A stretch of DNA of 38,405 nt from Oceanospirillaceae bacterium (GTDB lineage: Bacteria > Pseudomonadota > Gammaproteobacteria > Pseudomonadales > Balneatricaceae): the NCBI GenBank assembly GCA_013215505.1, contig JABSQZ010000035.1:1-38405 (forward strand), in the 5' to 3' direction. Positions 1,392 through 36,700 of the stretch are shown one piece after another. Below the pieces are notes generated by a model. The model saw only the letters and a program-made list of their open reading frames with translations, was not told the DNA's origin and made no database searches. The first letter of the stretch is position 1; the number at the start of each line of letters is the position of its first letter. Made by a program: the position numbers and the translations under genes.

Positions 1392-1997
1392 GTGCCACTC
1401 CTTAATACCTGCGTTAAAAAATAGTCATGAACATATTGTGACAGTACATATACCTTCTGCGCAACAAAATACATAAAAAACAGATCCTAAGGTATGTGTG
1501 ACTATGATATATAAATTCATGTACTGTTCCTTTAGTGAGAGCTAGGATGGAAAAAAATTAACCTTGTTACTTAATGCCCCTAAAATCAAGTGCAGTCGCA
1601 GGCAGCTGATACCAGTAGTGATTTTACTGCCCAAACTTGCGCAAGAATGAAAATTTAAAAGTAGGGCTACGGGAAGTAAAACCAAGAATAGAGATAAATG
1701 AATATGACTGCTTTTGGCCGAGAGCGTAGATTGCCTATCACGCCACCCATGTGAATAAGTTAGCATTAACAGTGGCAGGACCTGACACATAGCTGCCGTT
1801 TTAACGGGCCTGATAAAAGGCACTTTTAGAATCAAATATGCGTCTAGTGAACAAGGGCCTTACCAGACGATCTGAAATGGTAGTTATTTCCTATTTTCCT
1901 TTTACCGGGCTGAAGGTGAATTATAATTACTGGTAGACAAGAAAACATGCAGATTTGTCATTGTTCATTAAACATGCAGAGATTAATTGGAAGAATC
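1392..1997. other. intergenic region, 606 bp
   Basis: I see no convincing gene. A 97-codon minus frame at 1542-1835 starts with TTG, lacks a ribosome binding site and overlaps a partial R element, so I do not accept it. The only recognisable content is that partial R element at 1704-1806. Confidence 0.5.
1704..1806 (+). repeat. R element, partial copy
   Basis: It contains GACTGCTTTTGGCCGA at 1706-1721 and, about 67 nt on, CCTGACACATAGCTGCCG (1781-1798). Both match the two corresponding parts of the fuller copies at 3604, 4421 and 35133, with similar spacing. The distal part (the GCTTGAATTAAG block) is not recognisable. This copy lies before a plus-strand gene, not behind a minus-strand one. 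Confidence 0.5.
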
Positions 1998-2762
1998 ATG
2001 CAAAATGAAGCAATAAATATTTTGAAAAGGGTTACCCTTGCTTTCTTAGTAATGTTCGTTTTTTCTTTTTCAATTCAAGCAGATGAGCCAGATCTTGTTT
2101 TAAACACATGGGCTCAATCTCCCCTTTCAAAGACAGACCATACTGGTTATCTGGATCAGATAATCATAGAAGCCTTTAAAAGAATAGATCTAAAAATTGA
2201 TATTGAACATAAACCGGTGGAAAGATCTATTAGGGGTGCAAATAATGGGCAAAGTGATGGAGAGTACATTAGGGTTGCAGGGCTCTCCCAAATCTACCCG
2301 AACCTTATTCAGGTCCCAGAAAAAATATTTGATTTTGAGTTTGTTGTTTTTACAGCAAAACGTAAGGTAATTATTAATGGATGGGATAGCCTTAAACCTT
2401 ATTCTGTAGGAATAGTTATTGGTTGGAAAATACTTGAAAAAAACATACAAGATGTGCGTCATCGAACTGATTTCAATGGTCCGGAGATTCTATTCAAAAT
2501 GCTGGATCTTGGTAGAATAGATATAGCTGTGTATGCAAAATTCCTCGGTTTTGGAATAGTAAATAACTTAGGATTAAAAGACATATTCGTCAACACTACT
2601 CCATTGGCAGTTAAGCCAATGTATTTATATCTCCACAAAAAACATCGAAATATTATTCCTGACATTACCAAAAGCTTACAAAGCATGAAGAAAGATGGCT
2701 CATTTTTAAGAATAGGAAAAGCATATTTACTTAAACAACAAAATAAGAATATTGTTGACTAA
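1998..2762 (+). CDS. orphan periplasmic solute-binding protein (SBP_bac_3 type)
   Basis: A 254-residue exported protein. The start at 1998 is chosen over an in-frame ATG at 1947 because GGAAG lies just upstream and it gives a clean signal peptide (MQNEAINILKRVTLAFLVMF, then FSIQA before the mature ADEPD). The mature part has the layout of the type 2 periplasmic binding fold used for amino-acid-like ligands: GYLDQIIIEAFKRIDLKIDI near the start, KIFDFEFVVFTAK in the middle, and a C-terminal DGSFLRIGKAYL typical of these proteins. No permease or ATPase gene is adjacent, so it may serve a distant transporter or act as a sensor partner. The ligand cannot be predicted. It is AT-rich like the other flank genes. 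Confidence 0.8.
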   Translation: MQNEAINILKRVTLAFLVMFVFSFSIQADEPDLVLNTWAQSPLSKTDHTGYLDQIIIEAFKRIDLKIDIEHKPVERSIRGANNGQSDGEYIRVAGLSQIYPNLIQVPEKIFDFEFVVFTAKRKVIINGWDSLKPYSVGIVIGWKILEKNIQDVRHRTDFNGPEILFKMLDLGRIDIAVYAKFLGFGIVNNLGLKDIFVNTTPLAVKPMYLYLHKKHRNIIPDITKSLQSMKKDGSFLRIGKAYLLKQQNKNIVD

Positions 2763-2901
2763 CTGCGATTTTATTTGGAGTTAGTTGCACAGCTGTTAGG
2801 CTCATAGAACAGAAGATACATCAATGATGTAAGTCAACGTTAAACACAAATAAATGACTAGATCCGATCATGAAGCCTGATGCGAATTTAGCAATATGGC
2901 A

Positions 2902-2924
2902 GCTATTGGCCGACAGTCGTCGAA
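2902..2924 (+). repeat. R element core, truncated copy
   Basis: It carries GCTATTGGCCGACAGTCGTC (2902-2921), identical over 20 nt to the copy at 36630. The rest of the element is not clearly conserved. It lies about 75 nt beyond the stop codon of the minus-strand gene at 2997-3416. Confidence 0.6.
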
Positions 2925-2996
2925 TGCCAGCCACATCAATTAAGCAGGCTAATCAGGTCCAGCAAAGTAAGACCAGACACAGAATAATTTACAGGC

Positions 2997-3416
2997 TCAG
3001 CATAAATTAGTTAATGGTAGGCGGCTTGGGAAAAGGGTTAAACTATTTTTTGCTTTAGACGCCGAATCAAGAAAATGATGTTCTATTCCAGCTTTAGTGT
3101 AACAGCGGCTCATCTGTTCTTTTACCAAGGATTTAAAATAGACATTCTCTAAGATTAAATAAACGGCTATTAAACCTCTTTTTTTTCTGTTTCTGAGAGT
3201 GGCTGTAAGCAACTTTTCTGCTTCAGGAGAGAGTAAACTCAATTGATGCAAGGTAATAATTTGATTCCATTGTGAGACTTCAAGCTGCTGGATACAGGAC
3301 TCTATGGCTTCAATGTAATACTTTGCCACCTCATCATTAAGCGGGCCAGTCGCGTCAACAAGTAATAGGTTAGCTTCCGTTTCTATCTCAAATACGCCAT
3401 GCTCTTGAAATTTCAT
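2997..3416 (-). CDS. STAS/SpoIIAA-like protein of unknown function
   Basis: A 139-residue soluble protein without signal peptide or membrane segment. Its beginning (MKFQEHGVFEIETEANLLLV, then DATGPLNDEVAKYYIEAIE) and the alternating strand-helix pattern with an IITLHQLSLLSPEAEKLL stretch resemble the STAS-like group of small cytoplasmic proteins, but I identify this by general pattern only. The last 15 or so residues (after KNSL) are low in structure and could be read-through into intergenic sequence. No strong ribosome binding site is visible before the ATG. It is probably a single-gene unit, with an R element core behind it and a palindrome about 110 bp in front. Confidence 0.6.
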   Translation of the reverse strand: MKFQEHGVFEIETEANLLLVDATGPLNDEVAKYYIEAIESCIQQLEVSQWNQIITLHQLSLLSPEAEKLLTATLRNRKKRGLIAVYLILENVYFKSLVKEQMSRCYTKAGIEHHFLDSASKAKNSLTLFPSRLPLTNLC

Positions 3417-3524
3417 ACGACACCATGTCTGAATAATTCATCCTTGAATTACAGTCATTTAATAGCAATAGGCATCTAAACATCAAGTGTATAAAAAAAG
3501 GACGGCTTTTAGTGGGCATAAAGG

Positions 3525-3545
3525 TTGTATAAAGAAATTATACAA
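3525..3545. promoter_or_regulatory. 8-bp inverted repeat, possible operator
   Basis: TTGTATAA, 5-nt spacer, TTATACAA: a perfect palindrome about 110 bp before the STAS-like gene, with another TGTATAAA just beyond. The size and symmetry suit a dimeric regulator, but no regulator is known here. Confidence 0.3.
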
Positions 3546-3603
3546 ATGTATAAATAGGTTCGGAGGTGTTTAGAAAATGCTTCATTCGGGCTATGAAAAC
3601 GTC

Positions 3604-3810
3604 TGCAATTGGCCGATACCGACTATTGCCAGTCACTTACTAAGTACTGACTAACCGTAGGGTTTGACACATGGGCGGCATTTTTAAAACGATAAATTAT
3701 CACTAAGGGTGCTTGAATTAAGCTTCACTATCCTATGCGGAATACCCATGGGGCCTCGCTCGATGGATGTAGTGGAGGCTGAGGCTAGGAGCCCCCGGCC
3801 ACCCATTCTT
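3604..3810 (+). repeat. R element, near-full copy
   Basis: It aligns with the copies at 4421 and 35133 through the TTGGCCGA start, the TTTGACACATGGGCGGC block (3662-3678), the GCTTGAATTAAGCTTCACTA block (3711-3730) and the terminal GGCCACCCATT. The stop codon and last nine codons of the GFA-family gene (3785-4198, minus strand) lie inside its distal end. Confidence 0.65.
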
Positions 3811-4198
3811 TTGGCTTAGTACGTGGAAGATTATCACCGACCTCTAGCCAAGATAACCGTTCATCAAAATGCACATGGAATGACGGAACTAATTGTTCGG
3901 GGTTTTCCAAACTCATCAGATAAAAATGAATTTCATTAGGATACCTGTCTGCATCAAAAGCCATGGGTGTTCCACAATGAACACAAAACAGCCTCCGTAC
4001 TCCTTTAGATGATTCATAAACACCAGGTTTTGCACCAGTGAAATGATAAGAATCTCTAGGCACTCCAAAAAAAGTAGTAAAAGCAGAAGATGTATTCCTC
4101 CGACAACTTTCACAATGGCAATGGCCACACCAATTTTCAGAACCCGTATATTCAAATGTTGTTTTACTGCATAAACAACGACCTCGTTTAATATCCAT
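3785..4198 (-). CDS. GFA family zinc-binding protein
   Basis: A 137-residue member of the glutathione-dependent formaldehyde-activating (Gfa/CENP-V) fold family. The zinc ligands are visible: C8-x-C10 (GRCLCSKTTF), C27-x-C29-x-x-C32 (GHCHCESCRR) and C72-x-x-C75 (FCVHCGTPM), followed by the family's ending (HVHFDERLSWLEVGDNLPR). Most members have no proven substrate; true Gfa joins glutathione to formaldehyde, but that activity is doubtful in general and cannot be claimed here. The start ATG has AGGA 5 nt upstream. The last residues (EWVAGGS) are encoded within an R element, so the 3' end may have been reshaped by the repeat. Confidence 0.88.
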   Translation of the reverse strand: MDIKRGRCLCSKTTFEYTGSENWCGHCHCESCRRNTSSAFTTFFGVPRDSYHFTGAKPGVYESSKGVRRLFCVHCGTPMAFDADRYPNEIHFYLMSLENPEQLVPSFHVHFDERLSWLEVGDNLPRTKPKEWVAGGS

Positions 4199-4420
4199 AA
4201 AGATCCTGTATTGTTTTTTATTTTACATTCTGTCGACTTCAAGACACTAGTGTGATGCTTATGCTATGTAAAAGCTAAATACTACGCATGACTGTTTTTA
4301 AAAATAACGAGTTTTTCATTATAATAAATCCCTAAAACGGCAAACACATCATAGGTTTATTAAACCTGAAATACGAATAAATGGAAAGTAAGGCTCAGAG
4401 CCTTAGTGTAACGCAATTGG

Positions 4421-4642
4421 AATGACCGCTTTTGGCCGACAGTCGTCATCGCTGACCGAAGGCTCAGCGCTTGCAAGTCAGCCTGTGTAACGGGAAACCC
4501 TAAACACATACGGAAGTTTTATAACGATGCATTGTCATTATGTAATGCTTGAATTAAGTTTCACTATTCTAATAAAACACCCTGTTCGGTCCCGCATCCA
4601 GGGTGTTATGAGGATTAGGGACCCTTGGCTACCCGATTAGCA
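4421..4642 (+). repeat. R element, full copy with terminator hairpin
   Basis: The best-preserved copy. It has GCTTTTGGCCGACAGTCGTC (4428-4447), CAAGTCAGCCTGTGTAACGG 53 nt downstream, CTAAACACATACGG, GCTTGAATTAAGTTTCACTA (4547-4566), a hairpin and a closing GCTACCCGATTAGC. It ends 10 nt beyond the stop of the EthD-like gene. Copies at 35133 and 36627 keep the same 53-nt spacing between the first two blocks. Confidence 0.75.
4569..4607 (-). terminator. hairpin terminator inside R element
   Basis: AACACCCTG (4576-4584) pairs perfectly with CAGGGTGTT (4599-4607) around a 14-nt loop. On the minus strand it is followed by TTTTATTAG, so it probably ends transcription of the EthD-like gene. Confidence 0.6.
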
Positions 4643-4652
4643 AGATGAATCA

Positions 4653-4964
4653 CTATACCTTAATTTCACTAATTTGAATTTGAGGCTTAGTATTTGTGTA
4701 ATTGGGAATGTCTGCCATTATTTTTTCTGCATGAGGACCAAATGCATTCTGAAAAACTTCCACGGAGTCGAAAATTAAATGCCCCATCGCTATAAAAGGT
4801 GCCACTTCGTCAGGAGCTCCTCCACCTAAGCCATGATCAACATTGCCACCTTTTAAAGTGTCACCAAGAAGCCCTTCGACCATTGGTATATGAGTATTGC
4901 AATAATATTCAATGTCAAAATTCGCATCTGACGAGTTTGGGTACATTACACTTACTTTAATCAT
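4653..4964 (-). CDS. EthD family protein
   Basis: A 103-residue dimeric ferredoxin-like (alpha+beta barrel) protein. It begins MIKVSVMYPNSSDANFDIEY and has the family's HIPMVEGLLGD segment and the later FIAMGHLIFDSVEVFQNAFG and Y-T-N-T-KPQIQISEI ending. EthD was named from an ethyl tert-butyl ether degradation cluster, but most members are uncharacterised and may bind or turn over small metabolites. AAGGAG lies 7 nt before the ATG. It stands alone, with the R element and its terminator directly behind it. Confidence 0.88.
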   Translation of the reverse strand: MIKVSVMYPNSSDANFDIEYYCNTHIPMVEGLLGDTLKGGNVDHGLGGGAPDEVAPFIAMGHLIFDSVEVFQNAFGPHAEKIMADIPNYTNTKPQIQISEIKV

Positions 4965-5273
4965 TATTTTTCTCCTTAAAGTTGTAATCTCATAAACTTC
5001 TATGTTGTAGAGAATACGACAATGTCATTTAGTAAAATGGTATGCCGCATTAAGATATTTTAACGACAATAACGACTGAGCATCAAGAGTATTAAAAGAG
5101 CACAGTTTATAGTGAAAATAAAGGATGGATAAAGCCGGAAGGGAGACGCATAGAGTAAAGAAGTAATAAACATTAGATCTCGGAAGCAGGAACTCCCTTG
5201 ACCTAAAATCAACAATCCACTCATCATATAAACTTTAGGCATTTACTCAGAGTATTTCAAAGGTGCTCTAGTG

Positions 5274-5300
5274 TCTGCTATTGGCCAGACTGTGAAAGTA
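5274..5300 (+). repeat. R element core, truncated copy
   Basis: TCTGCTATTGGCCAGACTG (5274-5292) matches the start of the R element with a few changes; nothing downstream aligns clearly. Confidence 0.4.
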
Positions 5301-5560
5301 GTTCGAATGGCTAAGCAAATACAGCCATTACTCCCAACATTAAGCCCGGTACAAATAAAATACCGCATGTCAAAATAAGACAGTGGTCTGGTTCTTGGTC
5401 TTAAAGATAACGATCATCGGTAGGGTAATTGTGTCGCAAATGGCAAGGAGATTTAAGCAGTATTATAGGAATATTTACGATAGGGTTTTGGATAAGTATT
5501 GGATAAGTTTTGGATGTACAAAAAACAGTCAGATAATTTTTGGATGATTTCGCGTTGATT

Positions 5561-5596
5561 GCTAGAGAAAGGAGCGGTCAAAAACCTTTCCCTAGC
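5561..5596 (-). terminator. hairpin behind ibpA
   Basis: GCTAGAGAAAGG (5561-5572) pairs with CCTTTCCCTAGC (5585-5596), 12 bp including one G-U wobble on the transcript. It starts 9 nt after the ibpA stop. There is no T-tract behind it, so it may protect the 3' end more than terminate. Confidence 0.45.
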
Positions 5597-5604
5597 TAAC
5601 GGAT

Positions 5605-6021
5605 TTAGTGCTCGATATTAATCGACCTGGGCTTCATTGCCTCAGGTAATTCACGCAGCAAATAAACATGTAACAGGCCGTTTTCCATGTTGGCTCTCTC
5701 TACATTAACGTGGTCAGCCAGCTGGAAACGTCGCTCAAAATTACGTGCCGCTATGCCTTGGTAAAGGTAGTTATGTTCCAGATTATCCTCGGCTTTTTCG
5801 CCGCTGATAGTCAAATGTCCCTGTTCAGAAGTTATCTTTAGCTCGGCAAAAGTGAAGCCGGCAACCGCCATAGTGATACGGTATTCATTTTCTGATAGTA
5901 GCTCTACATTGTAGGGCGGGAAGGAAGGTTGATCTGTACGGGTGGTGCTGTTAATGATCGAGGCAATGCGGTCAAAACCAATTGCTGAACGGTACAGTGG
6001 TGTTAAATCTAAAGTTCTCAT
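5605..6021 (-). CDS. ibpA: small heat shock protein IbpA
   Basis: A 138-residue Hsp20 chaperone that holds unfolding proteins in aggregates for later rescue by DnaK/ClpB. The N terminus MRTLDLTPLYRSAIGFDR is almost that of E. coli IbpA, and an alpha-crystallin domain follows with PPYNVELLSENEYRITMAVA and FERRFQLADHV; the C-terminal IXI-type anchor is RSINIEH. The start is the ATG at 6021, not the in-frame ATG at 6027: AGGA lies 7 nt before 6021 but only 1 nt before 6027, and known IbpA proteins begin MR. Upstream are a sigma-32 promoter and an RNA thermometer, so the gene is controlled both by heat-shock sigma factor and by temperature-dependent translation. Confidence 0.95.
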   Translation of the reverse strand: MRTLDLTPLYRSAIGFDRIASIINSTTRTDQPSFPPYNVELLSENEYRITMAVAGFTFAELKITSEQGHLTISGEKAEDNLEHNYLYQGIAARNFERRFQLADHVNVERANMENGLLHVYLLRELPEAMKPRSINIEH

Positions 6022-6024
6022 ATT

Positions 6025-6045
6025 CATATCCTAATTAGCAATATG
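6025..6045 (-). promoter_or_regulatory. ROSE-type RNA thermometer hairpin of ibpA
   Basis: On the transcript CAUA-U-UGCU, loop AAUU, AGGA-UAUG. UGCU faces the Shine-Dalgarno AGGA with one G-G opposition, and CAUA pairs with UAUG around one bulged U. The UUGCU opposite AGGA with a G-G pair is the hallmark of ROSE elements in Hsp20 leaders. It hides the ribosome binding site at low temperature. Identified by eye. Confidence 0.75.
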
Positions 6046-6093
6046 TAGTAAAACACTCATCCGAAGACTGAGTGGGCGAAGCCGGTTGGCTTC

Positions 6094-6124
6094 TATTAGC
6101 GGCCTCTGATGAGCACCGCTAATA
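6094..6124 (-). promoter_or_regulatory. 5' leader stem-loop of ibpA mRNA
   Basis: TATTAGCGG (6094-6102) and CCGCTAATA (6116-6124) form a perfect 9-bp stem with a 13-nt loop at the predicted 5' end of the ibpA transcript. ROSE leaders usually have one or more such stable upstream hairpins ahead of the thermosensing one. Confidence 0.55.
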
Positions 6125-6127
6125 CAT

Positions 6128-6155
6128 ATATGAGGTAACAGTTGTGAAGTTCAAG
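6128..6155 (-). promoter_or_regulatory. sigma-32 heat shock promoter of ibpA
   Basis: On the minus strand CTTGAA (6155-6150), 14-nt spacer, CCTCATAT (6135-6128), close to the RpoH consensus CTTGAAA / CCCCATnT. Transcription would start near 6121, giving a leader of about 100 nt that contains the two hairpins described. Confidence 0.65.
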
Positions 6156-6182
6156 GGGCGGGGAGAAGAAATTTTTTTACCT

Positions 6183-6581
6183 TTACAGTACTTCGGAATT
6201 GAATTTGTTAACGTCGTTGGTGATGTTTACCTCAACGTTGGCCGAGGGGATTTTAAAATCGTAAACTCGCTGCCACTGATCTTGTTCCGGGGTGCGCTCC
6301 CAAACAGTGCCCGCGTTGTAGGTGACGAGTTCTGTCAGGCTAGTATCCATCTCGCTGATCTTTTCCAGTGGTATCGGCAACATGTTGGCGAGTTCATTGG
6401 CAAGGTAATCATCGTCCTCATAGCCGCTGTACATGCGCCAGCCAGTATCATTAAGGTGTTCTGGTACTGTCTTATAGAGGAAGCGTATCGGCAGCTGATC
6501 GTCAAGGCAAAGCTTGGAGACTAGCGCCAAAAATCCACTCTTGGACTGGTTGGTTTCACTGTTGTTTTGATTGCTGTTCAT
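6183..6581 (-). CDS. DUF2185/Imm33-like protein
   Basis: A 132-residue soluble protein. After a polar N terminus it has RFLYKTVPEHLNDTGWRMYS-GYEDDDYLANELA and later LPLEKISEMDTSLTELV-like sequence (actual IPLEKISEMDTSLTELV), the layout of the DUF2185 family, some of which are predicted immunity proteins (Imm33). No toxin gene is adjacent, so an immunity role is not supported here. GGAG lies 7 nt before the ATG. A 126-codon frame on the opposite strand (6144-6524) overlaps it almost fully and is treated as a shadow. It reads toward ibpA, which has its own promoter. Confidence 0.75.
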   Translation of the reverse strand: MNSNQNNSETNQSKSGFLALVSKLCLDDQLPIRFLYKTVPEHLNDTGWRMYSGYEDDDYLANELANMLPIPLEKISEMDTSLTELVTYNAGTVWERTPEQDQWQRVYDFKIPSANVEVNITNDVNKFNSEVL

Positions 6582-6728
6582 GTTGCTCTCCAGACTTGCT
6601 GTGGGTCAGTTGTTACTAAATTTCCGCGATAGTAGCAGAAAATAAATGGCTGTAAAGGGGAGTAAAACAGTAGCGCTACTAAAGCGTGGAAAAACACAGC
6701 AGATTAAGCCATGCATATTTCCCTAAGA

Positions 6729-6737
6729 TGTTATAAT
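6729..6737 (+). promoter_or_regulatory. extended -10 promoter of marC
   Basis: TGTTATAAT: a perfect -10 with a TG extension about 50 nt before the marC start; the -35 is weak, as is usual for this class. Confidence 0.45.
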
Positions 6738-6786
6738 TTGGTGTTTATTAGTATTTATAATTGAATATTTAGTTAGGATTTTTAGT

Positions 6787-7386
6787 ATGGATTTAAGCAT
6801 ATATTTTGCCGGGCTCGCCTCCCTGATGGTAATTATCGACCCTATAGGCACGGCGCTGATCTTTCACTCGTTAGTTCCACCAGAAGATAAACGCTTCAGA
6901 CTGAAAATGGCGCTGAAGTCTACGGGTATAGCGACAGCTTTGTTGCTGCTGTTTGGCTTGTATGGCGAGCCATTTTTAGAATTATTAGGTATCAGTATTC
7001 ACGCATTTAGGATATCGGGGGGGATACTGTTATTTTTCACGGCTTTTAATTTGATCACTAAAGAGACGGAGTTCGCCGCTGGAACCAGCCACAAAGATAT
7101 ATCAGTGTTTCCTATGGCTATTCCGATGATGGCCGGCCCCGGTTCATTGACCTTAACGATCTTATTGTTTTCTCAATCTAATGAAACGGCCGCCGATTTC
7201 GCTGTGGCCGCGGCTGTGGTTAGCATAACGATGGCGACGCTGTGTTTTATGCTGTTATCAAAGTATTTGAAGAAGATCATAGGCCGTACCGGAGATGATA
7301 TTTTGCGGCGTTTCCTGGGGGTGATATTAGCGGCGCTAGCGATCCAGTTCATCTATGATGGAGTAGTTAACATCGCGGGGAGTTAA
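6787..7386 (+). CDS. MarC family integral membrane protein
   Basis: A 199-residue protein with six predicted membrane segments (for example LASLMVIIDPIGTALIFHSL at the start and ILRRFLGVILAALAIQFIYD near the end). The diagnostic MarC segments are present: IDPIGTALIF near residue 17, the RISGGILLFFTAFNLI segment and VFPMAIPMMAGPGSLT in the middle. Family length is about 200 residues, so it is complete. MarC was once linked to multiple antibiotic resistance but the role was not confirmed; transport is presumed. It is convergent with pssA, and the two share a hairpin between them. Confidence 0.92.
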   Translation: MDLSIYFAGLASLMVIIDPIGTALIFHSLVPPEDKRFRLKMALKSTGIATALLLLFGLYGEPFLELLGISIHAFRISGGILLFFTAFNLITKETEFAAGTSHKDISVFPMAIPMMAGPGSLTLTILLFSQSNETAADFAVAAAVVSITMATLCFMLLSKYLKKIIGRTGDDILRRFLGVILAALAIQFIYDGVVNIAGS

Positions 7387-7432
7387 CATCGCTAGCGGTT
7401 AAAGATAGGGCTGCTCTGCACAAGCTGATAAT

Positions 7433-7478
7433 ACAGCGACTCTGTTTGGGTAACTAAACAGGGAGTCGCTGTGTTTAT
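7433..7478 (+). terminator. terminator between marC and pssA
   Basis: ACAGCGACTC (7433-7442) pairs with GAGTCGCTGT (7463-7472), extended inward by TGTTT/AAACA past a two-base bulge, followed by GTTTATG. It probably serves marC, and perhaps pssA in the other direction. Confidence 0.65.
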
Positions 7479-7491
7479 GTTGACTGAAAAG

Positions 7492-21175: not shown

Positions 21176-21889
21176 TTAGCAAATATCATCGCTGCTAATA
21201 GAAAAAGACCACTTTTTGTTGTCTGCTGTAGTGCCGGGGGAAGGGTTGTGTTGCAAAAAAGTTTGAAATTTTAATCTGCTGATTTCTTCTGCTCCCATGC
21301 TTTGCAAGTGATCGCTGTGCAATTGACAGTCAATCAAACTAAAACCCCAAACTTTTAATTGTGTGGCAAGATAACAAAAGGCCACTTTGGAAGCGTTAGC
21401 TCTAAAGCTAAACATCGACTCTCCAAAGAAAATATTGCCAATACATAGGCCATATAAACCACCTACCAGTTCATCTTGCTGCCAAACTTCAACACTGTGA
21501 GCTACCCCTATGGCAGATAATTGGCAATAGGCGGCCTGCATCTCATCGGTAATCCAGGTACCTTCCTGATTTTTTCTCAGTTCAGAGCAATTATTAATAA
21601 CCTGGCTAAAGGCCTGGTCAAAAGTGATGTTGAACGGATTTTTTCGGATGCACTTTGCCAGGCTCCGGGAAACATGTAATCGCTCGGGAATTAATACGCA
21701 ACGCGGCGCTGGACTCCACCATAAGATAGGGTCGTCTTCACTGAACCAAGGGAAAATACCTTGACGGTAGGCGTTGATTAAGCGCCCAGTACTCAGATCG
21801 CCTCCTGCAGCTAGCAGGCCATTAGGCTCCAACAGGGCGTTATTAATATCCGGAAAAACGTAGTCGTCGTCGGCTAGCCAGGGAATCAT
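21176..21889 (-). CDS. aat: leucyl/phenylalanyl-tRNA-protein transferase Aat
   Basis: A 237-residue enzyme that adds Leu or Phe to proteins with N-terminal Lys or Arg, the classic step of the bacterial N-degron pathway. Diagnostic segments: PNGLLAAGGDLSTGRLINAY, GIFPWFSEDDPILWWSPAPR, and GGLYGLCIGNIFFGESMFS with the catalytic glutamate region. The C terminus after ISRLKF is slightly short of motif but in the normal size range (E. coli 234). The ribosome binding site GGATGA lies upstream. A degenerate copy of the first 22 codons plus ribosome binding site sits just upstream (21989-22059). Confidence 0.96.
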   Translation of the reverse strand: MIPWLADDDYVFPDINNALLEPNGLLAAGGDLSTGRLINAYRQGIFPWFSEDDPILWWSPAPRCVLIPERLHVSRSLAKCIRKNPFNITFDQAFSQVINNCSELRKNQEGTWITDEMQAAYCQLSAIGVAHSVEVWQQDELVGGLYGLCIGNIFFGESMFSFRANASKVAFCYLATQLKVWGFSLIDCQLHSDHLQSMGAEEISRLKFQTFLQHNPSPGTTADNKKWSFSISSDDIC

Positions 21890-21902
21890 TAACGGTCATC
21901 CT
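21832..21902. repeat. direct repeat unit 1 (5' end of aat)
   Basis: 71 nt covering the ribosome binding site and first codons of aat. It matches 21989-22059 at about 61 of 71 positions without gaps. Confidence 0.85.
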
Positions 21903-21971: not shown

Positions 21972-22046
21972 TCATCTATACGGTTCCCACAGGGCGTTAT
22001 TAATATCCAAAAGACAGTTATTGTCGTCGGCTAACCAGAGAATCAT
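21972..22046 (-). pseudogene. 24-codon relic of aat 5' end, possible leader peptide
   Basis: Reading MILWLADDNNCLLDINNALW-EPYR then TGA, it matches the aat N terminus MIPWLADDDYVFPDINNALL at most positions and keeps the same frame, start and GGATGA ribosome binding site. It lies 82 nt before aat on the same strand. It is most simply a decaying tandem duplication, but with start, stop and ribosome binding site intact it could be translated as an upstream peptide. Confidence 0.6.
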
Positions 22047-22059
22047 TAACGGTCATCCT
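21989..22059. repeat. direct repeat unit 2 (degenerate copy of aat 5' end)
   Basis: 71 nt, shifted by 157 nt from unit 1. The first 20 nt and last 20 or so are nearly identical; most of the differences are clustered at the middle codons. Confidence 0.85.
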
Positions 22060-29234: not shown

Positions 29235-29243
29235 GGATCTAAC

Positions 29244-29558
29244 GTGGAGATAATCACTAATGATACACCTAGGCTATTAGAAGAGTGGGTAATCTGGCCT
29301 AGAGTTAACGCTGAATCAAAGGTTGGATATTCCTCGTCGTGCCCGTTCGTCTTCAAGAAAGGGTCTAGTCTGCTTGCCATCACGGATGATGAAGCGCAGG
29401 AAGTGGATGCGGCGGTTACTAGGTTTATCCAAACAGATTAGGAAATGGAAAATGTACTGAAACTATATTTTTTCAGCGGCAGCAATATATCGCGTGTGGC
29501 CCGTACTATGGCCCTAGACAGGTGGCGTGTCGACACACTGGTAACGATAAATATATAA
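29244..29558 (+). pseudogene. Q-like phage antiterminator, interrupted by TAG
   Basis: From a GTG with GAGGA 7 nt upstream it reads 65 codons (TNDTPRLLEEWVIWPRVNAE to DDEAQEVDAAVTRFIQTD), then TAG at 29439-29441, then in the same frame NVLKLYFFSGSNISRVARTM-ALDRWRVDTLV to a stop at 29556. The two parts together have the layout of small Q-type antitermination proteins: LLxxWxxW, an SDDEA-like segment, then a helix-turn-helix. The position after DUF1364 and ssb is where Q lies in lambdoid phages. Family call by pattern. Confidence 0.6.
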
Positions 29559-29574
29559 CCAAGCAAGCAACCTG

Positions 29575-30240
29575 TCAAAGCAAGCAGCACTGCTCCTCTT
29601 GGCTCCAAAGCTGATGCTTCTTCATCATTCTGGCATACAGTTTGCTTTGTAATTGAGTGCTTAGCCAAACTTTTACTTTAGGGTAGGGTGCAGTGGCGAA
29701 CCATTTTCGATCAACACGGCCAAACTGGCGCAAAAAAGGAATAAAAGCATAGTCGGCCAAACTGATACTGTTTCCAATAAAAAAGCCATTATCGGTTAAG
29801 CGTTGTTCAAGTTCTTGAATAAACATTTCGCACTGCTGACGCCATTTTAACTCGGTATCGCGATGATAGCGTTTAGCGGCGCGATATTGCTCAAGGGGAT
29901 GTTTAAACTGATCATCGCCGCGTTGAATTAACGCAATAATCGCCTGGTGGGTGTCGGGTTGGGCTTGAGCTAATAAACTATTGGGATCGTTTTGTTTTAA
30001 TGCCCAGTGCATTATATCGATGCTTTCTTCAAGGACAGTGCCATCGGCCAAAATCAAAACAGGCACGGTGCCTTTAGGCGATGCTTCAAGCATTGCCAGG
30101 GGTTTGTTTTTCAAGGTGATGGCGCGGATGATAATGGTTTGCTCTGACAGCAGCAGCGCAAGACGTGCCCGCATGGCATACGGGCAGTTTTGCAGTGAGT
30201 ACAATATTGGAAAGTTATGGGACCCACTCGGCTCGATCAT
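29575..30240 (-). CDS. glutathione S-transferase
   Basis: A 221-residue two-domain protein. The N-terminal thioredoxin-like domain begins PILYSLQNCPYAMRARLALL and contains the glutathione-binding PKGTVPVLILADGTVLEESI; the all-helical C-terminal domain has NGFFIGNSISLADYAFIPFL with the conserved N-capping S-L-A-D. The CPYAMR start is closer to the beta/omega-like classes with cysteine in the active site, which often reduce mixed disulfides. The ATG overlaps the U32 gene's stop as ATGA, so translation is coupled. The prophage relic abuts its 3' end. Confidence 0.93.
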   Translation of the reverse strand: MIEPSGSHNFPILYSLQNCPYAMRARLALLLSEQTIIIRAITLKNKPLAMLEASPKGTVPVLILADGTVLEESIDIMHWALKQNDPNSLLAQAQPDTHQAIIALIQRGDDQFKHPLEQYRAAKRYHRDTELKWRQQCEMFIQELEQRLTDNGFFIGNSISLADYAFIPFLRQFGRVDRKWFATAPYPKVKVWLSTQLQSKLYARMMKKHQLWSQEEQCCLL

Positions 30241-32534
30241 AATCCCTGACTGTACTGGGCATTGGTTTTAATGGTGACCATATGGTTGAGATGGGCCTGT
30301 GCAACCGTATTAATCTGCTCATCATTACTGAGTAGATTTTCAAAATGTCTGAGTAGTTGCAATTTATCTAATTTTTCTTTAGAGCCACTGCCAATATCAG
30401 TCAGATCAATAAAGAACTCATCAAAGACTTCTTCTAGATCGTTAATGATATCCAGGTTTAAAAATTGCTCGTGGTTATAAATGCTTGGATAACCACCTTT
30501 TTGTTTATCCACTGCAAACGACACGCCTTTCACATTAGTAATGGTCGTGGCTTTGGTGCACTTAAGCATACAACCGTCTTCGATAGTGGGTTTCTTACAG
30601 CCAACAGTTTGCTGGAAAAAACACTGACGGCTGACCATCATCAAAATAGGGTGATAGATGCTGTAAACCATTTTGAAGTTTGCAGGGCGTGCAAGATTTT
30701 TGATTTGCTGACGATTTATTTCATTAGAAATAAATGCACCGGCACAATTTAACTCTTCTTTTAACGTCATTAGCGCATAAGAGTTGGTGGTGTTCAAAAA
30801 CGGTCCGGCAATCCACTCAATCCCCATTTGATTGGCCACATAGGCAATGCCGGTATTATTGCTGACAATTTTCACAGGCCTTACCTGCTCAAGAATCTTA
30901 ACCGCTTCTAGGTAATCTTTACCAATTAACACAGCGGGAAACCATGGAATTAGTTTCGGGTTAGCGTTAAGTATATCGCTGTATTTCGGCGATTCTTTTT
31001 TGTAACTTTCAGGCAGCTTGAAGTAAACATCCGCATCTGTTGCATCGGCCAGATAAAAATCTTTTTCATCACTGATCAAAATAGACAGCAGCGGTTTATT
31101 ACCCGGTCGGTCATTTTTCAGCTTCGGCTGCGACACTAATTTCGGTAGATCAACAGGGGCGATCACTGCTGTGTCATCGTTTAGGTGATAGGCGATTTGA
31201 TTTCTTAAGACGGTTAATTCTTTAAAGGGAACACTCAGCCCCTCGGCCATTTCGCTGCAGTCAAAACGCTCAATAATATAGTCTGAATTATTAAAAATTT
31301 TAAAACGCTTTTCTAGTGTTGCTTGATCAAATGGCGATTTGTCAGAGCGGGTTAATCGCGAAGTCGATGTTGCAATAATCGGCGCATGTGCGTTTTTGGC
31401 ATGCTCTTCAATGATCACCGTGACAGTCAAAGGCTGGTTTAGCGCGCCTGAAAACTTAATAGTTATATTTTGTTTGGCAATACTAAGGTACTTGATTTTA
31501 TCTTCGAGTGTGGCGCCAAGTACTTGTTTGTCCTCGTAAAGCGCTTGTGTCACATCATGAATCTGCACCGCAGAAATAGCATTACTGCTTTGCACTGCAT
31601 GTGTCACGCTGTGATCGCGAGGGTTATCAATAAACATATCCTTGCTTAATTTACCGGTTAGGAAGGAGTTGGTGAAATCCCGATTAAACACTTTATGTAA
31701 ATTAGAATCATCTTCACGCAGCTTACCTGTTTCAATAAACTGATTAATATTTTGCCGCCAACTATCAATCACGGTATAGACGTAGTGAGCACCTTTAATA
31801 CGGCCTTCGATTTTTAAGGAGTCGACACCCGCTTCGACCAGTTGCGGGAGGTCAAAATACGCCGAGTTATCTTTTAAATTCAGCGGAAATCTATTGCCGG
31901 TTTTGCCCGGCTCATATTCATCGCGACAAGCCTGGCTACAGCGACCACGGTTGCCTGAGTTACCCACACTGACCGAACTTGAATAACACTGGCCCGAAAA
32001 GGCAATACATAAAGAGCCATGCACAAACACTTCTGTTAATACTTGGTTGTCATGGGCCAGGGCGGTTAATGATTTGATCTCAGGGAGATTTAGTTCGCGG
32101 GACAAATTCACACGAGACGCACCCGCTTGTTTTAAGAATAAAATCTGCCCGGGGTTATGTGTGGTCATCTGAGTAGAAGCGTGGATATCTAGCGTTGGGA
32201 AATGTTTTTTAACTAGCTTAAATAGTCCTAAATCTTGCACAATAATGCCGTCGATACGGGTGTTAACTAACTTGTTCAACAGCTTAAATAAGCCGGCCAT
32301 TTCTTGCTCAAGAATAACCACGTTAAGGGTAAGGAAAACCTCACAGTTGTACTTATGCGCAAGTTTCAAAATGCCAGTAAGTTCATCAAAAGATATATTG
32401 GTGGCTCGATTACGTGCATTGAACATATCGAGGCCGCAATATACCGCATTGGCGCCAGCGACAATAGCCGCCTTAATTGCTTCAACATCACCACCAGGGG
32501 CTAATAATTCGATCTTTTGCATTGCTGTGCTCAT
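30237..32534 (-). CDS. U32 family protein, RlhA-like with C-terminal extension
   Basis: A 765-residue member of the peptidase U32 family. Characterised bacterial relatives (TrhP, RlhA, UbiU/V) bind a 4Fe-4S cluster and hydroxylate RNA or ubiquinone precursors, so protease activity is unlikely. N-terminal barrel: ELLAPGGDVEAIKAAIVAGA, HASTQMTTHNPGQ, EVFVHGSLCIAFSGQCYSSS, with cluster cysteines C176, C183, C199 and C203, and VDSLKIEGRIKG. A middle domain follows, then a second barrel-like region with another four cysteines C638, C646, C655, C659 (SRQCFFQQTVGC; DGCMLKCTK). It is longer than E. coli RlhA (653). 23S rRNA C2501 hydroxylation is a guess. Coupled to the GST gene. Confidence 0.9.
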   Translation of the reverse strand: MSTAMQKIELLAPGGDVEAIKAAIVAGANAVYCGLDMFNARNRATNISFDELTGILKLAHKYNCEVFLTLNVVILEQEMAGLFKLLNKLVNTRIDGIIVQDLGLFKLVKKHFPTLDIHASTQMTTHNPGQILFLKQAGASRVNLSRELNLPEIKSLTALAHDNQVLTEVFVHGSLCIAFSGQCYSSSVSVGNSGNRGRCSQACRDEYEPGKTGNRFPLNLKDNSAYFDLPQLVEAGVDSLKIEGRIKGAHYVYTVIDSWRQNINQFIETGKLREDDSNLHKVFNRDFTNSFLTGKLSKDMFIDNPRDHSVTHAVQSSNAISAVQIHDVTQALYEDKQVLGATLEDKIKYLSIAKQNITIKFSGALNQPLTVTVIIEEHAKNAHAPIIATSTSRLTRSDKSPFDQATLEKRFKIFNNSDYIIERFDCSEMAEGLSVPFKELTVLRNQIAYHLNDDTAVIAPVDLPKLVSQPKLKNDRPGNKPLLSILISDEKDFYLADATDADVYFKLPESYKKESPKYSDILNANPKLIPWFPAVLIGKDYLEAVKILEQVRPVKIVSNNTGIAYVANQMGIEWIAGPFLNTTNSYALMTLKEELNCAGAFISNEINRQQIKNLARPANFKMVYSIYHPILMMVSRQCFFQQTVGCKKPTIEDGCMLKCTKATTITNVKGVSFAVDKQKGGYPSIYNHEQFLNLDIINDLEEVFDEFFIDLTDIGSGSKEKLDKLQLLRHFENLLSNDEQINTVAQAHLNHMVTIKTNAQYSQGL

Positions 32535-32939
32535 ATAACGGGTGACACCTAATTCTTGAGATAAACAGTAGGAAATAATTGGCTAGGCATTTTAGCTGGA
32601 AGTGAAGGCTAATGCCATCTATCTAGGCGGATGTTGCGCATGGGTATCACAAATAGGTTAAAAGACTGCTTACCACAGTGGGCACCGAGAACACAGAGGA
32701 GGGGTTGATAGATTTAAGTATCATCACACCGGGCAGTCACACTCTGGGATAGGCAGTTGATTATGTACTACAAAGCCCGAAGGTTCCTAACTGTATTGGT
32801 GCAGATCGAAGCTGAATTCAAGTGATTCATAGGTATTTTCAAGTTATAAAAAATGGATGCCTCATAGGGCTCAGTGCTTACCAAATCATAACTAATGCTG
32901 GTTTAGCTGATACCTTAATTTACTGTTAAAGGAATGAGT
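32535..32939. other. intergenic region before gene remnants
   Basis: 405 bp in which I see no gene or repeat. Confidence 0.4.
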
Positions 32940-33229
32940 ATGTATCAAGGAAAAGGAGATAAATACAGGAGTTTTAAATCTCTAAATCTGAAAGTTAAAT
33001 CTAGAACCGAAGGAATGTTCGTTCAAAATGAATGCTATCTTGCATCACCGTCTTCTTTAATTGACCTTATGATTGTAATCCGCGCGTGAAAACGCCTGCT
33101 GGTGACTTAAGAAACCACATCATTAAGAAAAGTAGAAAAGATGGGCCCAAGTTATCCAGCCATGCAATTACTAAAACTGTCATTGATTTCAGTAATAATT
33201 ACAAAAATGGCGGTTTTCAAAAATATTAG
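32940..33229 (+). pseudogene. possible frameshifted small gene
   Basis: From an ATG with AAGGA 6 nt upstream, 49 codons (YQGKGDKYRSFKSLNLKVKS to SLIDLMIVIRA) end at TGA 33087-33089. In another frame, overlapping there, coding-like sequence continues as VKTPAGDLRNHIIKKSRKDG-PKLSSHAITKTVIDF to TAG at 33227. The two parts read as one hydrophilic basic protein of about 95 residues with a shift at CGCGCG. I do not recognise a family. It may be only a 49-residue protein. Confidence 0.35.
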
Positions 33230-33362
33230 ACGATAATATTAGCGTTTTTTGCTTGGCGGAAGAACCGACGCTGAGCACCAATAGACTATGTCGACAGCAG
33301 GCCTGATCTTGATGTAATTAGATTTCAAACGAAGATGCTTATAGGCTAAAAAGATAAGGGAA

Positions 33363-33613
33363 GTGGTAACGACAAAAAGTCGTACATGGGTTGATGAAAA
33401 AGAAGTTAGACTCTTTCAGGATAAAAGCGGTTCGTATCCAATTCCGGCAGCAAATATTACCGGAGTTTTTTTGGTTTACACGCTACAACAGAACCTATGG
33501 ATTACATTAAATCTTTAATTAGCAGTCATAATCTAGACATTAAATGCTATCAACGTAGAGACAACGGCAGCAGCTATAGAATCGAAGCTGAAGAAGTTTC
33601 TCCTTACAAATAA
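33363..33613 (+). pseudogene. small gene broken at a T-run
   Basis: Frame 1 from GTG (33363) reads SRTWVDEKEVRLFQDKSGSY-PIPAANITGVF; from a run of seven T (about 33466-33472) the sensible continuation is one frame over, GLHATTEPMDYIKSLISSHN to RIEAEEVSPYK and TAA at 33611. One more T would join them into an 82-residue protein. Family unknown. Natural frameshift, slippage-controlled gene or sequencing error are all possible. Confidence 0.4.
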
Positions 33614-34048
33614 ATCAAGGTAATACCTCACCCCTCTCGCGGCTGATACGGTGATAGGATGTCTATTGCAGTCGAGGAATAAAGTTTCAAACTCGATAGC
33701 TGTTATTTGTGCTTGTGAAGAAGTCTGCTGATGACAGATTGCAGTCTCTTAAGACCAGGGTCAACGTGGCCTAATTGTTATGATTTCGCATTCTCATAGA
33801 GTGATTGGTATGGTTAAAGCGTTCCCTTTTAGTCGCACTAAATACAAATGGCTTTGAGTTAAAAGTGAACTTTCAGTTGAATATAAATTAGCTGTCGATT
33901 TGGAGTTAAAACCTGCACTTTGATTTTCTGTGAAAATGATCAGGTTATAAATCAAATTTCTCTGATCCCATAAATGCTTCCTTGTGCGCCCGAAATGTTA
34001 CGCTTTTTACTTAGTGAGCTATACTTCTGGAATATTGGAGGAGGAATT
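33614..34048. other. intergenic region, 435 bp
   Basis: AT-rich; no gene, repeat or clear promoter recognised. Confidence 0.4.
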
Positions 34049-34834
34049 ATGAATTCTACTAAAGTGAGCTTAGCTATTTTCCGAAATTTTCTAATCTATG
34101 CCTTATTATTTCTAAGTGCTGTATCCTTTTCATACGCCGATGAAAAATTAATTTTCTTAACCGAAGAATGGAAACCGTTTAACTTTAAAAGCAACGATAA
34201 AGAAGTTGATGGATTCACTGTTGAGATTGTCGAAAAAATAGCAAAGAAGCTTGGTACAAATATTTCAATTGATATCTGGCCCTGGAGTCGTTCTTACATC
34301 ACGGTTTTAAAAACCGAAAAGCATGCAATTTTTTCCATTTATCGTACTCCAAAAAGAGAGACTCTTTTTAAATGGGTAGGCCCAGTTTACAGTGTAGATA
34401 CAGTATTGTGGGGTCTAGAGAGTAGAATGTTGAAAATAAATAGTTTGGAAGATGCCAAAAAGTATCAAATCATTGTTCAAAAAGATAGTGCCTATGAAGA
34501 GGTCCTCAAAGCCAGAGGTTTTAAGAACTACTCTCTGAATGCGATTAGAACAGAACTTAATATGGTTTTACTTGGTCGTGGTGATTTAGTTCCGTTGAGT
34601 GCTTTAAGTCTTGATAAGCTGAAGAAAGCTGCGATTGATCAAAATATGCCAAATGAAAAATGGAAGGCATATGCTGTTCTGTATTCAAAGCCTGTGTATA
34701 TAGCATTTAATATAAACACACCTGAGCATATTATCCAGAGCTGGCAAGCTGAACTTGATAAAATTAAGAAAGACTCATTTTATTCAGATATAGAGGCTAA
34801 GTTCATCACACCTATCCTAAATCAGAAAAGGTAA
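34049..34834 (+). CDS. orphan periplasmic solute-binding protein (SBP_bac_3 type)
   Basis: A 261-residue exported protein. The ATG at 34049 is chosen because GGAGGAGG lies 5 nt upstream and a signal peptide follows at once (FLIYALLFLSAVSFSYA, cut before DEKLIF). The mature protein starts as the family does, LIFLTEEWKPFNFK and VDGFTVEIVEKIAKKLG, then SRSYITVLKTEKHAIFSIYR and RETLFKWVGPVYSVDTVLWG. The C terminus (WQAELDKIKKDSFYSDIEAK) is also typical. Homologues bind amino acids or similar. No transporter genes are nearby, as for the other two in this window. Confidence 0.85.
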   Translation: MNSTKVSLAIFRNFLIYALLFLSAVSFSYADEKLIFLTEEWKPFNFKSNDKEVDGFTVEIVEKIAKKLGTNISIDIWPWSRSYITVLKTEKHAIFSIYRTPKRETLFKWVGPVYSVDTVLWGLESRMLKINSLEDAKKYQIIVQKDSAYEEVLKARGFKNYSLNAIRTELNMVLLGRGDLVPLSALSLDKLKKAAIDQNMPNEKWKAYAVLYSKPVYIAFNINTPEHIIQSWQAELDKIKKDSFYSDIEAKFITPILNQKR

Positions 34835-34934
34835 TATTTAGCGCCGAGTAGAGACAGATAAGTGGATAGTGAATTTTACAATGCCATAGAAACGAATACT
34901 TTAATTGATCGACTAAATGCCTGCATTAAAAGCC

Positions 34935-34961
34935 CGAAAGCCACAACGGCCTTTTTTGTTT
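34935..34961 (+). terminator. possible terminator
   Basis: AAAGCC, ACAAC, GGC(C)TTTTTT: a short stem with one bulged base followed by TTTTTTGTTTT, about 100 nt behind the solute-binding protein gene. Confidence 0.35.
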
Positions 34962-35132
34962 TATGAAATTCAAGAGGCAATTGAAGTCAGCTTTTCTATA
35001 AATACAATAATATTTTGAGTTCAACTGAATGTTCACTTCCATTAGCTATCACTAACTTCAAACGGGCTAAAATGTCCTGAGTTTCGCCAGGCCAATTAGA
35101 GGCTACTTTGCCTACTCTTATGCTCTCTAAAA

Positions 35133-35360
35133 TGATGTCCGCTTCTGCCCGACAGTCACCATGACTAAACGAAGATTCAGTGCTTGTAAGTCAGCCTGGG
35201 TAACGGCAAAACCTGACATACAGCGGACAATTTTCAAACAATAAATTCTAACTATGTGATGTTTTAATTAAGTTTTACTATTCTAATTGAAACGCCCTGT
35301 GCTGTTCTGTTTTCGAGGGGTGCGGTGCCGAGAATAGCAGCCCTTAGGTATCCGATTGTT
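35133..35360 (+). repeat. R element, full copy
   Basis: It aligns end to end with the 4421 copy: GCTTCTGCCCGACAGTC (35141-35157), TAAGTCAGCCTGGGTAACGG 53 nt on, CCTGACATACAGCGG, TTTTAATTAAGTTTTACTAT (35262-35281), an imperfect hairpin in the place of the 4576 one, and the closing CCTTAGGTATCCGATT. It ends 107 nt before the stop of the minus-strand gene at 35468. Confidence 0.7.
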
Positions 35361-35467
35361 ATTTAGCTACTGCGTTCATAGAACCCTTTAAATGCAGAAT
35401 CAGGTATGCAGGTTTCATACATTCTTTCTTCGTGGATTACTAATGGTCTATATAGGTGAATAACCTA

Positions 35468-36310
35468 TTATTCGGGCTGTTCAAGTCTGATGATCGTTCT
35501 GGAATCAAGTTGCAGTTGTCGAAAGTCTTTTTGCCAGTGATCCCTCTGCATCTCAACAATTAGGTTATTGTTTTTGGCTTGGCTCAATGCTTGAAAAAGT
35601 ATCTGCTCATATTTCTGTGTCGCGCCGCTTATATAGAAGACAAAGTCTCTCTCGTAAATCAGCAACAAGGTTTTCTCAATTTGTAGCTCCGGATGTAACT
35701 TGGCCTCGGCTGAAATTTCGATAACCCCGCGAGAGAAATAGTCGATATCACGATTGTCATGGACTAGCATGTTGTAAATTTTGTGCCAGTCTCCCGGTAC
35801 AACTTGGTACTTAAGCCTATTCGCTCGCCATACCTTAATATCGTACCAATTTGACCCAAACCCCCCTGTTTTTTGCAGTGCTCTGAAATCAGAGAGGCTT
35901 TTAACCCCATTGAATTCAGATTGTTTATCTGGGGGGATCAAAAGGATACGTTGTCCGATCAAACCATTGGTTAGGCCGACGTTAATTGGAGTGAAGGCTT
36001 GATCTCGCTGTTGGGTTTTTAATAACCAGTACAAGCTGATGCGGTCCCGTTTGAGTTCGTGGATCACTCGGTTTTGTGGCATTTCCTCAGACAAACTAAT
36101 AATGGGAGTATGGCCTGCCGATTTCAAAGCGTTGATCAATAAATTGTAATAATAAATGTGGCTGCCATCCTTAAAGCTAGGCAAGGTTAGCGTAATTACA
36201 TCGGCATTTGCTTTACTTATATTGATTAACATAACAATGGAAAGTATGAGAAATAAAAGTGATCTGCGCCTGTTTTTATTACTATAAGTCAGTTGCAATA
36301 TATTTAGCAT
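35468..36310 (-). CDS. periplasmic solute-binding-like protein
   Basis: A 280-residue exported protein: a basic N terminus (SNKNRRR), a membrane-spanning signal (SLLFLILSIVMLINISKANA) and a type 2 periplasmic binding fold suggested by the mature start DVITLTLPSFKDGSHIYYYN and by INVGLTNGLIGQRILLIPPD and YFSRGVIEISAEA. The similarity to SBP_bac_3 proteins is looser than for the other two. A ribosome binding site AAGGTAA precedes the ATG, 11 nt behind a frameshifted upstream gene with which it forms an operon. Ligand unknown; no permease nearby. Confidence 0.75.
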   Translation of the reverse strand: MLNILQLTYSNKNRRRSLLFLILSIVMLINISKANADVITLTLPSFKDGSHIYYYNLLINALKSAGHTPIISLSEEMPQNRVIHELKRDRISLYWLLKTQQRDQAFTPINVGLTNGLIGQRILLIPPDKQSEFNGVKSLSDFRALQKTGGFGSNWYDIKVWRANRLKYQVVPGDWHKIYNMLVHDNRDIDYFSRGVIEISAEAKLHPELQIEKTLLLIYERDFVFYISGATQKYEQILFQALSQAKNNNLIVEMQRDHWQKDFRQLQLDSRTIIRLEQPE

Positions 36311-36321
36311 AAGTTACCTTG

Positions 36322-36566
36322 TTAGAAAATCCATGCTTCAAGTATAGGTTGTTTTTGTACAACGGCTCGATATTCGGTTGGTGGTAAGCCCCAAGGTTGA
36401 TAACCACTTGTTAGTGTCACCGAGCTTAAATCATCGTAGCTTGGACACCAATATATCGGCTTTGCTTATCATAGTGAACCAGACAGGCTCCAATAAAACT
36501 TTCAGGACTTTCGTCGCAGAACTCAAGGGAATATGTTCCGCATACTAATATATAAAGCGTCACCAT
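36322..36566 (-). pseudogene. frameshifted unknown gene in operon with solute-binding gene
   Basis: From an ATG at 36566, the frame reads VTLYILVCGTYSLEFCDESP and FIGACLVHYDKQSRY, then the sensible reading moves to another frame as WCPSYDDLSSVTLTSGYQPW-GLPPTEYRAVVQKQPILEAW to a TAA at 36322-36324. Removing two bases from the TATATA at the junction gives RYWCPSYDDL and one continuous 80-residue frame, so a TA duplication broke the gene. No family recognised. It ends 11 nt before the next gene, whose ribosome binding site overlaps this stop region. Confidence 0.5.
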
Positions 36567-36626
36567 CTCTGATTAGGCTCCTGATATGGAATTATAGTGG
36601 CCTAACTACAAAAGGTAATGTTGATG

Positions 36627-36700
36627 ATTGCTATTGGCCGACAGTCGTCATAGCTAACATGGATCAAACAATGCAGATTGTGACCTGTGTATGCAGGATA
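36627..36700 (+). repeat. R element, 5' half
   Basis: GCTATTGGCCGACAGTCGTC (36630-36649), identical to 2902-2921, and TGACCTGTGTATGC placed 53 nt on, exactly as in the copies at 4428 and 35141. The second half is not recognisable. It lies about 45 nt beyond the stop of the LysR gene. Confidence 0.6.

Follow-up and report, generated by a model that had tools for sequence, protein, structure and literature searches.

The stretch of DNA analysed here (the window, 38,405 nucleotides of an Oceanospirillaceae bacterium) is contig C31 of a 5.73-Mb genome in 52 contigs (G000). It carries seven copies of an intergenic repeat, all on the + strand, at positions 1703, 2895, 3598, 4421, 5270, 35134 and 36623. 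They flank a housekeeping block, and we argue that they are probably the recombination sites of a gene-cassette system other than the integron. Seven copies in a single orientation had been claimed in a preliminary description of the window, and all are present. The 17-nt head AATGNCNGCNNTTGGCC gives nine matches in the window with at most two mismatches, against 1.17 expected, and none of 100 shuffled sequences reaches nine. Six of the nine are real copies; the other three (448, 8928 and 17625) each have two mismatches and appear to be chance hits. The copy at 35134, with the head GATGTCCGCTTCTGCCC, is caught by a profile of the repeat and not by the head pattern, and the copy at 5270 is caught by the head pattern alone and missed by the profile.

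Three copies have a full core. Copy 1 spans 1703..1802 (100 nt, profile E 1.1e-14), with a distal tail, GGGCCTGATAA..CTTACCAG, that can be followed by sequence to ~1866. Copy 4 (4421..4520) is also recognised by the profile, matches 40 places in its own genome when used as a query, and has a distal hairpin tail to ~4640; that of copy 6 (35134..35233, E 1.8e-21) extends to ~35357. Copy 3 has an 87-nt core (3598..3684, E 2.9e-12). Its hairpin tail continues to ~3804-3811, into the end of the GFA frame (3785-4198), an overlap that had been reported before and agrees with the coordinates; the profile match reaches 3804. The other three copies are degenerate or head only. Copy 2 has a degenerate core (2895..2982, E 1.7e-5). 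Copy 5 (5270..5286, AGTGTCTGCTATTGGCC, one mismatch to the pattern) is a head alone and forms the end of the left array, ahead of the Hsp20 gene; copy 7 (36623..36658, E 0.0013) is likewise only a head.

The units marked out by the copies hold one gene each. In the left array, the unit 1703..2894 contains a gene on the strand of the repeat (1947-2762, +, 271 aa; no Pfam match at E 0.01). The unit 2895..3597 contains gene 2997-3416 (-, 139 aa; no Pfam match), 3598..4420 the GFA gene (3785-4198, -), and 4421..5269 an EthD-domain gene (4653-4964, -). On the right, unit 35134..36622 contains gene 35468-36310 (-, 280 aa; no Pfam match), and copy 7 is grouped with a LysR-type regulator gene (36746-37675, -) that precedes it in gene order (36623..37675, outer limit provisional). 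The coordinates confirm that five of the seven copies lie behind a minus-strand gene. Homologous stretches of these units occur elsewhere in the genome: five further ones in the fetched segments for 2895..3597 (C25, and C1 at ~235, 687, 781 and 796 kb; 73-87%), and one on C22 for the EthD unit (83%).

For the genome-wide analysis, a profile of the ~100-nt core was built from 52 copies, 50 from the same genome and two from the congener G005. It matches at least 143 places in the genome at E ≤ 0.1 and at least 130 at E ≤ 0.01, with 150 of 1827 and 150 of 1704 candidates scored in the two runs; further copies may exist, and the weakest matches may include a few chance ones. None of the matches at E ≤ 0.1 falls in the housekeeping middle of the window, which had been described as free of copies. 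The best-kept part of the repeat is the head, AATGNCNGCNN-TTGGCCGA, and the core is closed by a second, inverted arm, ANNGCNGNCATT, so that it ends in terminal inverted repeats (AATGNCNGCNNT and ANNGCNGNCATT). Cores are 100, 87, 76 or 69 nt long, the shorter ones through losses in the centre, and some copies are reduced to the head. By eye, at least two kinds of tail follow the core, one of them bearing the distal hairpin. The length of 210-230 nt first given for the repeat is therefore that of a core plus one kind of tail, the conserved core being ~100 nt, and a block spacing of 53 nt, thought to be fixed, is seen in full-length cores and lost in shorter ones.

The copies are set in orientation. 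In the 20 contig segments fetched for holding copies, 130 of 136 copies (E ≤ 0.05) lie on the majority strand of their own segment, or 129 of 135 without the one-copy segment. The largest array runs from ~738 to 796 kb on C1, gaps included. This pattern bears on the idea that the repeat is a non-autonomous transposable element, inverted at its ends, which inserted behind genes that do not move with it. The ends AATGNCNGCNNT and ANNGCNGNCATT are indeed inverted, and both arms are found around some integrase homologues; to that extent an earlier suggestion of a non-autonomous mobile element is borne out. Other results speak against that reading. Insertion in either orientation, as expected of miniature inverted-repeat transposable elements, is not what the strand counts show, neighbouring copies are about one gene apart, and homology between contexts spans the gene and often ends at one point of the repeat. 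We consider this explanation quite improbable.

Gene content was examined in intervals between neighbouring copies 250-2500 bp apart (n = 93), with the gene chosen mechanically as the longest frame of at least 60 codons. Gene and repeat are on opposite strands in 68 intervals and on the same strand in 23, and two have no such frame (sign test 2.5e-6, in which duplicated units are not independent). The median interval between copies is 1094 bp. The check proposed at the outset, a genome-wide profile, thus finds copies that mostly share the orientation of their segment and usually lie behind a gene. A Pfam scan of 86 unit proteins (85 of 90 listed, plus the EthD protein of the window) matched 48 families in all, and the commonest cargo is family-3 solute-binding proteins (8/86). 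We note that window gene 33974-34834 also encodes a family-3 solute-binding protein; it is outside the 86 scanned.

Homologous gene-plus-repeat units are found with different neighbours, both within the genome and in congeners. The segments of the genome were compared mutually and with 12 congener stretches, which yielded 85 alignments of at least 250 bp, with 170 ends. Nineteen of these ends lie -5 to +35 nt from a repeat start in both partners, against a random mean of 0.044 (maximum 2 in 1000 trials). In the clearest pairs the switch falls between AATGNCNGCNN and TTGGCC, and identity is bounded there at both sides of the unit. For example, C30:24404-25491 and C3:7805-6718 are 96% identical, with edges at +11 and +17 in both, and a unit on C1 matches contig 279 of G006 at 84%, with edges at +9 and +17 in both. 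Comparison of units, as distinct from observed recombination, thus puts the exchange at one position in the site. Because the edges of identity lie at TTGGCC, the repeat appears to be divided at the spacer, what precedes it moving with one unit and what follows it with the neighbouring one. The halves of the site on either side of the exchange point likewise go with different units in integron arrays.

Ordinary homologous recombination between dispersed repeats could also shuffle genes, and copies that are 76-93% identical over the aligned part (copy 4421 as query) would offer it a substrate. Such recombination would not readily account for the concentration of near-repeat edges in the first ~30 of 100 nt, nor for the switch at TTGGCC in the clearest pairs, which come from different arrays and species. 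We regard it as very improbable.

The arrays are present in some members of the genus and absent from others. Among seven genomes, including G000, copies at E ≤ 0.01 occur in five (130, 25, 11, 7, 1, 0 and 0). The conserved block of the window, ~5.5-32.6 kb with both ends checked, is common to G001, G002, G004 and G005, and the 7.7-12.3 kb flanks on either side of it hold no copy at E ≤ 0.05 in these four genomes. The left edge of synteny with them lies at 5478..5593. Directly next in three of them (G001, G002 and G004) is aroC, the gene for chorismate synthase, which adjoins the Hsp20 gene (window 5605-6027); these names come from Pfam for G002 and the window and from alignment for G001 and G004. 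In G000, aroC is on contig C35, apart from the Hsp20 gene, and each is beside array copies. The three copies on C35 (the third weak, E 0.0066) continue the orientation of the left array of the window. We infer, across the assembly gap between C31 and C35, that an array lies between aroC and the Hsp20 gene in G000. G005 has ~2.1 kb extra at this place, with no copy in it, and the contigs of G003 break at both block edges. The right edge of synteny with congeners is at 32625..32662, where the G003 contig ends and just past which, beyond the same gene, G006 has copies. The right flanks of the block are dissimilar among the four congeners, so an empty site is not demonstrable there. Two results had been named in advance as counting against a cassette-like arrangement, random placement with respect to genes and no gain or loss of units between relatives; neither was observed. 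Within the housekeeping part, a separate 78-nt direct repeat (21825-21902 and 21982-22059; 85% identical, 157 nt from start to start) has no match to the array repeat.

A pattern search of 96 genomes gave matches in G000 and two of its six congeners, and none in 53 other members of the family or 36 of the order. A scan of named genomes with the pattern returned 12 stretches from other bacteria with one match each and no arrays, and a small recombinase of the type described below was not found at those 12 loci.

The closest parallel to the arrays is the integron. Integron cassettes consist of a gene and a 3′ recombination site and form one-way arrays, which reach about a hundred units in chromosomal superintegrons. 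The system described here shares the single gene with a 3′ site, the one-way arrays, the scale of around a hundred units and exchange near one end of the site, and its site is also an imperfect inverted repeat of variable length. It differs in lacking attC motifs and an IntI over cut-off, in an exchange point beside TTGGCC/CGGCCA, and in a candidate enzyme that has no N-terminal domain and whose gene can itself bear the site. The absence of attC core sites, asserted from the start, is confirmed: in the outer 26 nt, neither GTTRRRY (shuffled mean 0.83) nor RYYYAAC is found in any of 50 copies. The IntI model (TIGR02249) finds partial matches at 11 places in the genome, none of which exceeds 265 bits. 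The strongest were rejected as IntI, being broken or partial integrases of IS91-type elements, the longest open piece of which scores 138.8.

A divergent true integron that has lost its integrase, that is, an attC cluster on its own, would explain the similar general layout and the conserved ends around a centre of variable length. Folding energies lean weakly the same way, with a mean z of -1.05 on the gene strand and -0.36 on the other in 50 copies compared with shuffles. Set against this are the missing GTTRRRY and RYYYAAC motifs at the copy ends, the lack of an IntI over cut-off, and a site with neither a consensus fold (RNAalifold on the copies) nor clear covariation of its arms. Constant arm positions pair. 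No clear covariation is seen among the variable positions, either inside a copy (133 of 324 paired cells; 0.41 vs 0.37 shuffled; p = 0.08) or inside a cassette (93 of 240; p = 0.52). These data may be compatible with a folded single-strand site, and also with its absence. The lost-integrase explanation is, in our judgement, highly improbable.

Xer/dif (pdif) modules of Acinetobacter plasmids, in which genes are flanked by core sites for a tyrosine recombinase, each with inverted arms around a short spacer, provide a second comparison. Such core sites are common to both systems, and the sequence of the array site appears unrelated to the dif consensus.

IS91-type elements deserve separate consideration, as their XerC/IntI-like integrase might move the cassettes, with the right end of the element as docking site. 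Three such integrase genes or pieces are located within arrays of G000 (C1:749.8-750.8 kb, C1:766.6 kb and C10:150.0-151.0 kb; L091-L093). The right end, TTTAGTCC, is joined directly to ATTGGCC twice in this genome and to TTTGACAC once; in two of four named plasmids examined it abuts TTCGACCC or GTTGGCCGA. The ends in the remaining two plasmids abut ATCGCTGC and ATTTGTCT, and an end in a copy-free congener abuts AATGGCAG, contexts so varied that they fit a loose target preference of IS91. Moreover, all three integrase genes in G000 are broken or partial. We think this explanation unlikely. IS91-family elements with a tyrosine recombinase resemble the units in that they occur in arrays and, two times out of three, stop at the same point; they differ in carrying a Y2 transposase and in being present in a copy-free congener as well. 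As a separate observation, IS91-type elements with an XerC/IntI-like integrase in several bacteria (also L172 and L174) have their TTTAGTCC end directly at the spacer of a cassette-like site (ATTGGCC, TTCGACCC or GTTGGCC), with exceptions.

A better candidate for the enzyme is located at the end of an array. The genome has 16 places that match PF00589, and C14:122433-123065 (211 aa) stands out among them. The protein scores above the PF00589 cut-off, matches the catalytic part alone of XerA, XerC and XerD, and aligns by eye with the XerA/XerD structures at R, HxxR, H and Y. Its gene lies ~150 bp away from the site that ends the C14 array, a shortened one. FimB/FimE-type recombinases are of comparable build, ~200 aa with the catalytic domain only, and invert one promoter segment; the candidate weakly matches the DNA-invertase model PRK09871 (NCBIfam). 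In contrast to that type, most of its homologues examined carry a cassette-like site behind the gene.

A sample of 398 genomes of the phylum yields homologues at E ≤ 1e-30 in 64, G000 included. Twenty-nine were analysed, one for each other genome with a locus returned (29 of 63 others), by scoring the 150 nt behind the gene with a weight matrix trained on this genus alone, alongside 392 control windows. Scores exceed the 95% control level in 22 of the 29 and the 99% level in 15 (p = 1.6e-14), and at 18 of these 22 loci the site starts 21-41 nt past the stop codon. For six of the 29, the 300 nt upstream contain an inverted copy that scores above the 99% level, as set on 150-nt windows; some integrase homologues are thus flanked by the same two arms. 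The matrix test supersedes a first motif count at 30 integrase loci (22 matches vs 0 in the reversed control), because three of those matches (L181 2048, L183 1564 and L193 2048) fall within the integrase gene itself, at codons for a conserved GQKPPLK-like stretch, one is the array of G000, and the other 18 include cases of a single palindromic site read on both strands.

At two loci a homologue stands in a row of genes or short units. On a Paraburkholderia megapolitana plasmid it (66%) is one gene of a row that bears six copies of a direct repeat beginning CGGCC; three plasmid records closer to the C14 enzyme were left out of the locus analysis. The matrix gives seven matches there vs one in the reversed control, five of them intergenic, 44-196 nt behind a gene on the same strand, and two inside genes. 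In G118 (L221, 10006-13160) the homologue heads a compact row of four short intervals; each has a single main frame, and 30-bp palindromic sites such as AATGACTGCTTTCGGCCAAAAGCGGACATT separate them. Judged from its sequence, this site is the simplest form of the core, two 12-bp inverted arms around CGGCCA or CGACCC. We also note a recombinase homologue on Klebsiella pneumoniae plasmid pKP29105-2 (L168, 3920-4640) with AATGTCTGCAATT in front and TGCCAACAGCGGACATT behind.

Taken together, the repeats are probably recombination sites, used by a gene-cassette system distinct from the integron. A unit would consist of a single gene, the leader that belongs to it, and a site past the stop codon. Exchange would take place in the spacer of a core site like those of tyrosine recombinases (in gene orientation an L arm, CGGCCA, and the R arm NNGCNGNCATT). 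A unit would leave as a circle via two direct sites and enter at another site, from which one-way arrays would follow. The arrays, the one-gene units, the one-point edges of recurring units and the presence or absence of arrays between congeners are all apparent from the DNA alone. The acting enzyme would be a tyrosine recombinase, for which the small, catalytic-domain-only family at the end of the C14 array offers the best candidate, and the recombining DNA is presumably double-stranded. Three readings had been put forward at first, a non-autonomous mobile element, a mobile terminator and a recombination site of an unnamed kind; the last of these, together with the cassette layout, is thereby backed.

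Several results weigh against this interpretation. It is a comparison of sequences, in which no recombination product was observed. At one or both partners, 151 of the 170 alignment ends are away from the repeat start; these ends may be those expected of a decayed partner or of alignments over part of a unit. Some edges near the repeat are unclean (+43 vs +57, or +50), and the longest frame shares the strand of the repeat in 23 of 93 intervals. IS91-type elements, which have another tyrosine recombinase, adjoin the exchange point too. Within the genus, the enzyme is intact in G000 alone, with a decayed piece in G006, and it was not found in the draft assemblies of the array-bearing G003 and G005 or of G002, which has one weak copy. 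The G000 enzyme gene itself has no recognisable site behind it. Of the homologue loci, seven of 29 fail the matrix test, homologues on plasmids of Vibrio europaeus and Sinorhizobium lack a clear site (by eye, strict pattern), and a looser motif is enriched by only 132 to 60 in 21 longer loci.

The system would belong among gene-cassette systems, as a variant for which we found no description, and it may be separate and widespread. The open-licence part of PubMed Central that was searched, preprints aside, yielded papers on integrons or other mobile elements and chance primer matches, and no such system. We put at about even the chances that Proteobacteria have a second widespread cassette system beside integrons, in which a small tyrosine recombinase, a cassette in its own right, acts on a double-stranded CGGCCA core, has carried single genes over many genera and has given rise in this genus to a collection of superintegron size. 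Integrons are the best-known natural means of stocking and swapping single genes. If the interpretation is correct, the same would be done here through an unrelated site and by another enzyme family, so that cassette arrays would have arisen more than once. Searches based on attC would then have overlooked a store of mobile genes, and a compact recombinase and its site would be open to direct testing.

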